Positions 47,627-55,166 of a stretch of 64,000 nt of DNA are shown here, piece after piece; position 1 is the stretch's first letter, and every line of letters begins with the position of its first letter. Origin of the DNA: Thermococcus sp. AM4 (lineage in GTDB: Archaea; Methanobacteriota_B; Thermococci; Thermococcales; Thermococcaceae). Below the pieces are notes generated by a model. The model searched no databases, was not told the origin of the DNA, and saw nothing but the letters and a program-made list of their open reading frames with translations. A program made the position numbers and the translations under genes. The stretch lies in the NCBI RefSeq assembly GCF_000151205.2, contig NC_016051.1, positions 1,178,001 through 1,242,000 on the forward strand, written 5' to 3'.

Positions 47627-47701
47627 TGGGCCCGGGGGGCTTTGAACCCCCGACCACGCGGTTATGAGCCGCGCGCTCTGACCAGGCTGAGCTACGGGCC
47701 C
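47627..47701 (-). tRNA. tRNA with CAT anticodon (Met, or Ile2)
   Basis: On the minus strand the acceptor strands are GGGCCCG (5' end at 47701) and CGGGCCC, with discriminator A at 47627 and CCA encoded at 47624-47626. The anticodon arm CGCGG-CTCATAA-CCGCG gives CAT. The initiator features (three G-C pairs flanking the loop as GGG/CCC) are not present, so it is elongator Met or Ile2 (read after C34 modification). The acceptor stem resembles archaeal Ile tRNAs, so Ile2 is a fair possibility. Confidence 0.9.
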
Positions 47702-47709
47702 ACAGCTGG

Positions 47710-47782
47710 CGCCGCCGCCCGGATTCGAACCGGGGACCGCCGGATTAACAGTCCGGCGCTCTACCGACTAAGCTACGGCGGC
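47710..47782 (-). tRNA. tRNA-Asn (anticodon GTT)
   Basis: On the minus strand the acceptor strands are GCCGCCG (5' end at 47782) and CGGCGGC, with discriminator G at 47710 and CCA encoded at 47707-47709. The anticodon arm CCGGA-CTGTTAA-TCCGG gives GTT. The T arm contains GGTTCGAATCC. It lies five bases upstream of the CAT tRNA's 5' end, so the two are probably one transcript. Confidence 0.97.
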
Positions 47783-52023: not shown

Positions 52024-52122
52024 TGGTGTTCCCTCCTACAGTCAGGGATGTCCACTGTTATTTAAAGATGTTATATGTAGCAGTACAAAACTTTTGTGCC
52101 CCAAACAAGTTACCCAAAAACC

Positions 52123-52268
52123 TTAAATACCCAAAGCCGTTACTCGCACCGATGCCGATGAGGGGGGAGTGTCTTCTCCGCTGGAATCACACCGGTGCCT
52201 GATTTCATCGATAACCCCCCTATTCTTGACTCCCGCTCTTTTGGAAAAACCTTGAGGAGGTTTTGGAC
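52123..52268 (+). promoter_or_regulatory. leuS promoter and structured 5' leader with short ORF
   Basis: Box A TTAAATAC begins at 52123 and predicts a transcript start near 52152, where an ATG opens a 16-codon frame (52152-52202; peptide MPMRGECLLRWNHTGA) containing adjacent Leu codons CTT CTC. The run A-GGGGGG (52161-52167) can pair with CCCCCC-T (52215-52221), which would enclose most of the small frame. The leuS ribosome binding site AGGAGG is at 52255-52260. Together these look like a leader that could control LeuRS synthesis; this is inference. Confidence 0.45.
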
Positions 52269-55166
52269 ATGAAAGTTGACTTCAAGGCCATTGAGGAGAA
52301 GTGGCAGAAGCGCTGGCTTAAGGAGAGGGTTTTTGAGCCCGACAGAAACGCGAAGCCCAAGGATAAGAAGTTCTACATAACCGTCGCCTTCCCCTACCTC
52401 TCGGGCCACCTCCACGTCGGCCACGCGAGGACATACACGATTCCCGACGTCATAGCTCGCTTTAAGCGCATGCAGGGCTACAACGTGCTGTTTCCGATGG
52501 CGTGGCACATCACCGGCGCGCCGATAGTCGGAATCGCTGAGCGCATAAAGAACCGCGACCCCAAAACCATACACATCTACCGCGACGTCTACAAGGTGCC
52601 CGAGGACATTCTCTGGAAGTTCGAGGACCCGAAGGAAATCGTCAAGTACTTCATGAAGGCCGCGAAGGAGACCTTCATAAGGGCCGGCTTCAGCGTGGAC
52701 TGGACGCGCGAGTTCCACACCACCAGTCTCTTTCCGCCCTTCAGCAAGTTCATAGAGTGGCAGTTCTGGACGCTCAAGGACATGGGGCTGGTCGTCAAGG
52801 GCGCTCACCGCGTCCGCTGGGACCCGGTTGTTGGCACTCCCCTCGGCGACCACGACATAATGGAGGGTGAGGACGTCCAGATTCTCGAATACGTGATAAT
52901 CAAGTTCATCTTGGAGGAGAACGGCGAGAAAATCTACCTTCCGGCCGCGACGCTGAGGCCCGAGACCGTCTATGGAGTAACCAACATGTGGCTCAACCCC
53001 AACGCCACCTACGTCAAAGCCAGGGTCAGGCGCGGTGACCGGGAAGAGACCTGGATAATCAGCAAGGAAGCGGCCTACAAGCTCTCCTTCCAGGACAGAG
53101 AGATAGAGGTCATCGAGGAGTTCAAGGGCGAGAAGCTCATAGGAAAATACGTGAAGAACCCGGTAACGGGCGACGAGGTCATCATTCTGCCGGCGGAGTT
53201 CGTCGACCCCGACAACGCGACGGGAGTGGTTATGAGCGTTCCCGCCCACGCGCCCTTCGACCACATAGCCCTCGAAGACCTGAAGAAGGAAACCGAACTG
53301 CTCCTCAAGTTCGATATCGACCCGCGCGTCCTGGAGGACATCACCTACATTTCACTGATAGAGCTTGAGGGTTACGGCGAGTTCCCGGCCGTTGAGGAAG
53401 CCGAGAGGCTCGGCGTGAAGAGCCAGAAGGACAAGGAAAAGCTCGAAGAAGCTACCAAGAACATCTACAAGGCCGAGTACCACAAGGGGCGCTTCAAGAT
53501 TGAGCCCTACGCGGGCAAGCCGGTCCAGGAGGTAAAGGACCTCATCGCCAAGGAGCTGATGGAGAAGGGAATAGCGGAGATAATGTACGAGTTCGCGGAG
53601 AAGCCCGTCATCTCGCGCTTCGGCAACCAGGCTGTCATCAAGATAATCCACGACCAGTGGTTCATAGACTACGGAAACCCCGAGTGGAAGGAGAAAGCTC
53701 GCGAGGCTCTGGCAAACATGACGATTTACCCGGAGAGCAGGCGCGCGCAGTTCGAGGCTGTAATAGACTGGCTCGATAAGAAGGCCTGTGCCAGAAAGGT
53801 CGGCCTCGGAACGCCCCTGCCCTGGGATCCAGAGTGGGTCATCGAGAGCCTGAGCGACTCGACAATTTACATGGCCTACTACACGATAAGCAGGCACATA
53901 AACAAGCTCCGCGAGGAGGGCAGGCTCGACCCCGAGAAGCTCATGAGGGAGTTCTTCGACTACATCTTCCGCGAGGACTTCAGTGAGGAGCGCGAGAAGG
54001 AGCTTGAAGAGAAGACCGGAATCCCGGCAGAGACAATCCACGAGATGAAAGAGGAGTTCGAGTACTGGTACCCACTCGACTGGCGCTGCTCTGCCAAGGA
54101 CTTGATACCGAACCACCTGACGTTCTTCATATTCAACCACACGGCTATATTCAGGCGCGAGCACTGGCCGAAGGGCATAGCGGTTAACGGCTTCGGAACG
54201 CTTGAGGGCCAGAAGATGAGCAAGAGCAAGGGCAACGTGCTGAACTTCATTGACGCAATCGAGGAGAACGGGGCAGACGTTGTGAGGCTGTACATAATGG
54301 GTCTCGCCGAGCACGACAGCGACTTCGACTGGCGCAGGAAGGAGGTCGGAAAGCTCCGCAGGCAGGTCGAGCGGTTCTACGAGCTGATAAGCGAGTTCTC
54401 AGGCTACGAGACCGAGGAGACCGAGCTCAAGAACATCGACCGCTGGATGCTCCACCGCCTTAACAAGGCCATCGAGGGAACCACCAAGGTCCTTGAGGAG
54501 TTCAGGACGAGGACCGCCGTCCAGTGGGCGTTCTACACGGTCCTCAACGACCTGCGCTGGTATTTGAGGAGGACGGAGGGAAGGGATGACAGGGCGAAGC
54601 GCTTTGTATTGAGAAAGCTCGCGGAAATCTGGGTCAGGCTCATGGCGCCGTTTACGCCACACATCAGCGAAGAACTCTGGGAGAAGCTGGGCGGAGAGGG
54701 CTTCGTCAGCCTCGCTCCCTGGCCAGAGCCCGTTCCCGAGTGGTGGGACGAGACGGTAGAGGCGGAAGAGGAGTTCGTCAAGGCCTTCATCGAGGACGTC
54801 AAGGAGATAATCCGCGTTGCGAAGATAGAGAACCCGAGCAGGGTTTACGTCTACACCGCCCCGGAGTGGAAGTGGAGGGTCGTTGAGGTCGTTGCCGAGA
54901 AGAGGGACTTCAAGTCTGCGATGGCGGAGCTCATGAAGGACCCGGAGATGAGGAAGCACGGCAAGGAGATAAGCAAGCTGATACAGAGGCTCATCAAGGA
55001 GAGGGCCTTCGAGGTCAAGAGAATAGACGAGGAGAAAGCTTTGAGGGAAGCAAAGGACTTCATAGAGAAGGAACTTGGCGTCGAGCTGATAATCAACCCC
55101 GAGGAGGACAGGGGAGGAAAGAAGAAAGCCGCGATGCCGCTGAAGCCCGCTGTGTTTGTTGAATAA
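52269..55166 (+). CDS. leuS: Leucyl-tRNA synthetase
   Basis: This 965-residue class I synthetase is of the archaeal/eukaryotic type. The HIGH-type motif is in [16 protein letters not shown] near residue 50, and KMSKS is in [11 protein letters not shown] near residue 650. An editing domain (CP1) lies between, with [16 protein letters not shown]. The C-terminal anticodon-binding and tRNA-contact regions follow. Its ATG at 52269 is eight bases from AGGAGG. Its two cognate tRNA-Leu genes with CAA and TAA anticodons are in the ribosomal block of the window. Confidence 0.96.

Follow-up and report, generated by a model that had tools for sequence, protein, structure and literature searches.

What purpose a short open reading frame (ORF) might serve directly upstream of leuS, the gene for leucyl-tRNA synthetase, was the question raised by this locus, which was analyzed within a window comprising the whole stretch of 64,000 nucleotides. 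The original prediction had described a 16-codon ORF with two adjacent Leu codons and a leuS ribosome-binding site downstream, and all of these were found in the sequence: the ORF runs from an ATG at 52152, the CTT CTC pair spans 52173-52178, and GAGGAGG precedes the leuS ATG at 52269 (Table 1). The transcript start had been placed at or beside the ATG of this small frame. From the P. furiosus promoter geometry given in the available part of the source (TATA at -30 to -23; PMC6640164), the 5' end of the leuS transcript was predicted to be the G at 52151, so the mini-ORF would probably be leaderless. Comparison among leaders indicated that it is the second ATG (52158) that is conserved as the start, the first being replaced by ATA in many of the sister leaders upstream of ileS; counted from the second ATG, the frame has 14 codons. 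The core of the leuS leader reads ATG-AGG-GGG-GAG-TGT-CTT-CTC-C, in which AGGGGGG occupies 52161-52167, the final C (52179) lies directly 3' of the Leu codon at position 7, and the frame-0 stop follows 7 codons past that codon. The original prediction was silent on two further features. One is a +1 frame that meets no stop between the Leu codon and the leuS start, where stop and start overlap as A-TGA; the other is the presence of sister leaders upstream of ileS and trpB, in which an Ile or a Trp codon, respectively, occupies the same position. Taking these features together with the comparisons described below, we consider it very likely that the leader is an aminoacyl-tRNA sensor that would work by programmed +1 ribosomal frameshifting.

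Table 1. Features of the leuS leader and their positions in the window.
Feature	Position	Strand	Basis
TATA-like element CTTAAATA, putative leuS promoter	52122..52129	+	Sequence
Upstream ATG, in frame with the second ATG	52152	+	Sequence
Frame-0 mini-ORF MRGECLLRWNHTGA-stop, from the second ATG	52158..52202	+	Conserved in 85 leuS and 76 ileS leaders
Shine-Dalgarno-like AGGGGGGA within the mini-ORF, proposed frameshift stimulator	52161..52168	+	Anti-SD duplex energy
P-site codon 6 CTT, proposed slipping tRNA site	52173..52175	+	Codon 6 identity across leaders
Proposed sensor ("hungry") Leu codon 7 CTC	52176..52178	+	Leu in 79/79 leuS leaders
+1-frame continuation, 31 residues, TGA 52270-52272 overlapping the leuS ATG	52177..52272	+	Sequence; +1 open across leaders
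Frame-0 stop TGA, proposed to end translation once the Leu codon is read	52200..52202	+	Frame-0 stops across leaders
CCCCCCT, 3' arm of the stem in the original prediction; partner not conserved	52215..52221	+	Leader comparison
leuS ribosome-binding site GAGGAGG, inside the +1 frame	52254..52260	+	Sequence
leuS, leucyl-tRNA synthetase, proposed regulated gene	52269..55166	+	TIGR00395 leuS_arch, 1192.5 bits (cut-off 648.5)

Conservation in close relatives, one of the checks proposed for the leader, was borne out by a leuS leader match in 59 of 61 genomes of the window's genus, which places the frame far from a chance occurrence. Most genomes of the genus held a second match to the 31-nt leader core, upstream of another class I synthetase that proved to be ileS (TIGR00392). 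The pattern ATGAGGRGGGANNNNNTTMTC was present in 90 of 94 genomes of the family, typically in exactly two places (before leuS and before ileS), and none of 21 genomes from the phylum's other families contained it. A search allowing two mismatches uncovered a related form of the leader preceding a TrpB-like gene (TIGR01415), which in this genome has three RxDCFW-like coding copies (G000:C1:1255132-1255232). Two-mismatch and degenerate motif scans of this genome returned only the leuS, ileS, and trpB leaders; no such leader was seen before its valS (L228), and other motif matches, when read in context, looked unrelated (L083, L084, and L098 were left out). The leuS and ileS leader sets represent part of the 94 family genomes, and the counts, which come from related genomes of six genera, are not independent events. 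Two observations stood apart from this distribution. In G087 (L181 / L338), the leuS leader appeared to be interrupted, with a 324-codon ORF, by eye resembling a transposase, lying between leader and leuS; in G072, a MRKECLW match was followed by no obvious amino-acid gene.

The first codons are common to the leuS, ileS, and trpB leaders, so that the triplet that changes among them stands out. With codon 7 left free in the search pattern, and only the third base of codon 6 fixed, codon 7 encoded Leu in 79 of 79 leuS leaders (78 CTC, 1 CTT); in the ileS leaders, it encoded Ile in 75 of 75 cases (74 ATC, 1 ATT). The lone CTT and the lone ATT both occurred in a single genome, G033. The corresponding codon in trpB leaders was TGG. 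Cognate identity of this codon is thereby established, and the leaders share with leader attenuators the presence of cognate codons in a short leader ORF. In the same free-codon list, codon 6 was CTT or GTT in leuS leaders and TTT in ileS leaders; NTT followed by the cognate codon was thus found in all 79 leuS and 75 ileS leaders, an arrangement from which slow decoding and slippage are predicted. Only one of the two Leu codons that had been singled out held up as a Leu codon, as codon 7 (CTC in the window) keeps its amino acid throughout whereas many leuS leaders have GTT (Val) at codon 6. Re-pairing of the P-site tRNA after a +1 shift is good for UUU-U and imperfect for UUU-A and GUU-C. A frameshift at a set ratio, in which a constant rate of +1 movement couples leader and gene with no response to charged tRNA, would fit all of the frame evidence presented below, and a P-site NTT with an SD-like element could suffice for it. 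However, the A-site codon is always that of the downstream enzyme's own amino acid, including the synonymous CTT and ATT of G033, and a constant-rate site would not need a cognate codon there. We therefore regard a set-ratio frameshift as improbable.

The reading frames were compared using a pattern that fixed codon 6 as NTT and codon 7 as [CA]T[CT], codon identities having been counted from the free-codon pattern. Past codon 7, the +1 frame contained 2 stops among 2782 codons in leuS leaders and 3 among 1768 in ileS leaders, while frame 0 contained 311 among 2784 and 162 among 1769, and frame +2 contained 122 among 2729 and 116 among 1747. Counting distinct leaders, no stop interrupted the +1 frame in 82 of 84 for leuS and in 65 of 68 for ileS, the maxima among dinucleotide shuffles being 24 and 38, respectively. 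By genus, it was open in 54/55, 3/3, 8/8, 11/11, 5/6, and 1/1 leuS leaders (six genera) and in 45/48, 3/3, 8/8, 2/2, and 7/7 ileS leaders (five genera sampled). Frame 0, in turn, ended no more than 10 codons after codon 7 in 84 of 85 distinct leuS and 69 of 69 distinct ileS leaders (shuffle means, 33.4 and 24.4). Paired frames, one closing early and the other held open, are therefore an established property of these leaders.

In all 161 leaders, the TGA within the leader's own ATGA closed the +1 frame on its upstream side, and in 60 of them (25/85 leuS and 35/76 ileS) this frame lacked any ATG, GTG, or TTG. Because the frame is closed upstream and has no conserved start of its own, it must be entered from frame 0, and a frame-0 ORF overlapped by a start-less +1 ORF is the layout of a +1 cassette. 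Coupling could also be achieved without frameshifting if ribosomes initiated separately in the +1 frame, or re-initiated in it once past the frame-0 stop, the latter being plausible in compact genomes, and some leaders do contain an ATG, GTG, or TTG in the +1 frame. The universal upstream closure and the leaders with no such codon speak against separate entry, as does the absence of +1 stops also between the sensor codon and the frame-0 stop, a stretch whose openness re-initiation would not require; such entry is decidedly improbable.

At its other end, the open frame leads to the gene. All 76 ileS leaders had their +1 stop within -4 to +20 nt of the ATG, 49 of them as an ATGA overlap. For leuS leaders, the offset from the script's choice of start ranged from -15 to +41 nt, with +4 to +11 the commonest, these offsets being partly inflated because the script took an upstream TTG as the start in several genomes. 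In two leuS and four ileS leaders, the stop fell 3-15 nt short of the gene. An upstream stop that overlaps or abuts a downstream start is the arrangement expected for translational coupling, and its presence here is established. Substitutions in the +1 peptide showed no third-position excess, which indicated that only the openness of the frame, and not the peptide, is selected. An unconserved +1 peptide fits a role in coupling, yet it removes one usual line of proof. The possibility of a conserved leader peptide was rejected on the same lack of third-position excess and on the variability of the N-terminal MRGEC, which among leaders also appears as MRGDR, MRGDL, MRGEY, and MRRD.

The stretch before codon 6 was predicted to form a duplex of -10 to -16 kcal/mol with an archaeal anti-SD sequence, whereas background windows gave a median of -2.4 kcal/mol against the same sequence, with the strongest 5% at -6.4 kcal/mol. 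In most leader types, this duplex ended 1-3 nt before codon 6, so that, given this anti-SD sequence, the leaders carry the 5' SD-like stimulator at short distance that characterizes +1 cassettes. The original prediction had assigned AGGGGGG to a seven-pair stem with CCCCCCT. Both arms are present in the window, and the perfect partner occurred in 41 of 56 leuS leaders of the genus, but it was found in 0 of 29 leuS leaders from other genera and in 1 of 76 ileS leaders, and the leuS leader folded no better than its shuffles (z = +0.53). As a switch, the stem was rejected for these two reasons, and as a working part of the leader it was not supported. Classical attenuation, in which a ribosome stalled on the Leu codons would change this hairpin and so control termination or the leuS ribosome-binding site, draws on the cognate codons of the short ORF and on the complementary pair within the genus; however, the pair's absence elsewhere, the lack of any folding surplus, and its failure to predict either an open +1 frame or start-less Trp copies leave it with very little probability. 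Conserved, mutually exclusive hairpins, which a leader-peptide attenuator would have, were not found in the leaders. Pure stalling was likewise rejected, as it leaves the open +1 frame and the start-less Trp copies unexplained.

T-box riboswitches sense the charging of a specific tRNA by means of a cognate triplet upstream of synthetase or amino-acid genes. They are untranslated, structured RNAs, whereas the leaders described here are translated and not structured. A T-box-like element, in which a specifier triplet in the RNA reads the tRNA directly and without translation, would be in keeping with a cognate triplet at a fixed place and with second and third Trp copies that mostly have no start codon. 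Nevertheless, Rfam scans returned two tRNAs only at the gathering score, the sole further matches being two weak snoRNA ones (E>3), with no match to a T-box covariance model, and constraints on frame 0 and the +1 frame would be pointless in an RNA that is not translated, so that we give this reading virtually no weight. A T-box or other known RNA was rejected on the basis of these scans. Elsewhere in the window, two adjacent tRNA genes lie on the minus strand at 47627-47782. The proposal of a leucine-specific translated leader has thus survived as a family-wide conserved frame with Leu at codon 7, but not with the stalling or T-box-like logic attached to it.

Leaders of trpB usually carry two to three tandem Trp sites, spaced 24 to 85 nt apart. 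When copies were located irrespective of frame, 108 of 113 intervals were 1 mod 3, and in all 108 the +1 frame was open and frames 0 and +2 were closed. This recount was independent of our leader walk, which makes tandem distances 1 mod 3 by construction, and it establishes the phase of the tandem copies. Walking each leader with a +1 step at every YTT-TGG brought 63 of 64 to an end between -4 and +17 nt relative to the trpB start, precisely at the ATGA in 53, and the 64th (G053) continued into trpB in frame. The walk covered 64 of 67 loci and left out three: G064, whose leader proved by eye to be there and to keep its phase; G066, where trpB is fused to the leader; and G068, where trpB has no leader. 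The first copy had an in-frame ATG 6-8 codons before its TGG in 65 of 65 trpB leaders, whereas 91 of 99 later copies had no upstream in-frame ATG, as expected if shifted ribosomes reach them.

The five exceptions to the spacing were all 0 mod 3. In four of these (G017, G025, G048, and G071), the last site was out of phase, and the composite frame nevertheless ended at +1 of trpB; for G022, the fifth, the end lay at -4. G025 differed from G004 by a single-G deletion in the 175 nt compared, and it reads as a natural version with a hard-wired shift, the frame being hard-wired in most of the exceptions. The trpB frame of G066 (L349) had no nearby ATG, GTG, or TTG of its own and connects to the leader only when read with a +1 shift, which may represent either a prfB-like arrangement or a broken gene. 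Between the final Trp site and the start of trpB, a TTATTCCCTCNCNTTTGGGA-like block was conserved (e.g., L090, about 1640-1670); CTT/TTT-TGG-like triplets occur within it, and it may be a displaced shift site in G022 and G060. In G063 (L354), a Trp leader preceded an apparent trpB fragment, a leader outliving its gene.

A Trp leader with two sites was also found upstream of a transporter-like gene in eight g4 genomes (G073, G074, G075, G076, G077, G079, G080, and G085; L334 and L355-L361). It was in phase in 8 of 8 and ended 14-28 nt inside an ORF starting with GTG. The G074 gene matched Pfam SNF, the sodium:neurotransmitter symporter family, and we predict tryptophan to be the substrate of this transporter.

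For the frameshifting sensor that we favor, the following sequence of events is proposed. A ribosome would start at the 5'-proximal AUG and translate MRGEC-L, which would place the internal SD-like AGGGGGG just behind the P site as the A site meets the sensor codon, CUC for Leu (leuS), AUC for Ile (ileS), or UGG for Trp (trpB). When charged tRNA is plentiful, the codon would be read, and the ribosome would terminate in frame 0 a few codons on, far from the gene. When charged tRNA is scarce, the P-site tRNA on NUU would slip +1, and the shifted ribosome would translate the otherwise start-less +1 frame until it terminates on the gene's start codon, where it could re-initiate or open the start site, coupling the leader to the downstream gene. 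In trpB leaders, each +1 slip at a Trp codon would put the ribosome in frame with the next copy, and the last slip would bring it to the trpB start; with two or three sites in series, several slips would be needed. Slippage, its rise on starvation, and coupling as the output are what we infer from the leaders; an advancing ribosome that relieved transcription termination would leave an identical sequence pattern. In its general form, the reading that a starvation-driven +1 shift at a cognate sense codon activates the matching synthetase, biosynthetic enzyme, or transporter, with tandem Trp codons acting as a filter, is one that we hold with good confidence. If it is true, the tandem Trp sites would constitute a multi-step filter in which access to the gene is the product of two or three slip probabilities.

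The closest known likeness is to bacterial RF2 (prfB), which also has a short frame-0 ORF and a 5' SD-like stimulator near the P-site codon. In E. coli, the prfB P-site codon is CUU. According to the available part of a 2016 review, the RF2 cassette includes an SD stimulator and a conserved 3' C, and, as proposed for our leaders, a slow A-site codon is followed by C and the product relieves the shortage (PMC5009743). The A-site codon of prfB is the stop UGA, whereas here it is a sense codon for the enzyme's own amino acid, and the shift in prfB makes RF2 itself, whereas here it would deliver ribosomes to a separate gene start. The leaders also differ from prfB in that their sites can be tandem and their host is archaeal, and with sense codons as sensors and LeuRS, IleRS, and TrpB-like proteins as products, in place of a UGA sensor and RF2, they fall outside the prfB family.

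The yeast Ty1/ABP140 site is slow owing to a scarce tRNA. This site, CUU-AGG-C in the part of the review available, is similarly a heptamer with a P-site NUU, a slow sense codon, and a C (PMC5009743), but it is not a regulatory leader. Like the attenuators trpL, leuL, and pheL, the leaders place a mini-ORF with codons for the regulated amino acid before synthetase or biosynthesis genes; unlike in those, the output here would be a reading frame and not alternative hairpins, and frameshifting in pheL is described as incidental in the available text of the same review (PMC5009743). The telithromycin-induced ermC leader, again as described there (PMC5009743), lets shifted ribosomes into the spacer and thereby turns on the downstream gene, but it is bacterial and drug-triggered, and its signal is not aminoacyl-tRNA.

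We found no description of these leaders in the open-access papers searched, and the word "synthetase" was absent from the main texts of the transcriptome papers on T. kodakarensis, T. onnurineus, and P. furiosus. Hungry-codon frameshifting has been investigated as an effect of amino-acid starvation. The 2016 review, in its available part, reports no known use of it for starvation-specific trans-frame products (PMC5009743). In the available part of a 2021 review of archaeal recoding, the cases given are one cellular -1 frameshift, a suggested chelatase case, and viral cases that include a likely +1 shift in a halovirus (PMC8211752).

Judged from their sequences, the leaders of these heat-loving archaea of the Thermococcus family look like a new way of sensing amino-acid shortage, one that would serve two tRNA-charging enzymes and the supply of tryptophan. 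If true, this would be a natural, conserved, multi-gene use of hungry-codon frameshifting for regulation, and it would also mean that a +1 frameshift operates in cellular genes throughout an archaeal family; we found neither described in the open-access papers searched. With single sites, tandem sites, and natural hard-wired variants, the leaders would also provide a ready system for measuring +1 slippage, and they would illustrate a route by which tRNA charging is sensed in an archaeon with no T-box involved.
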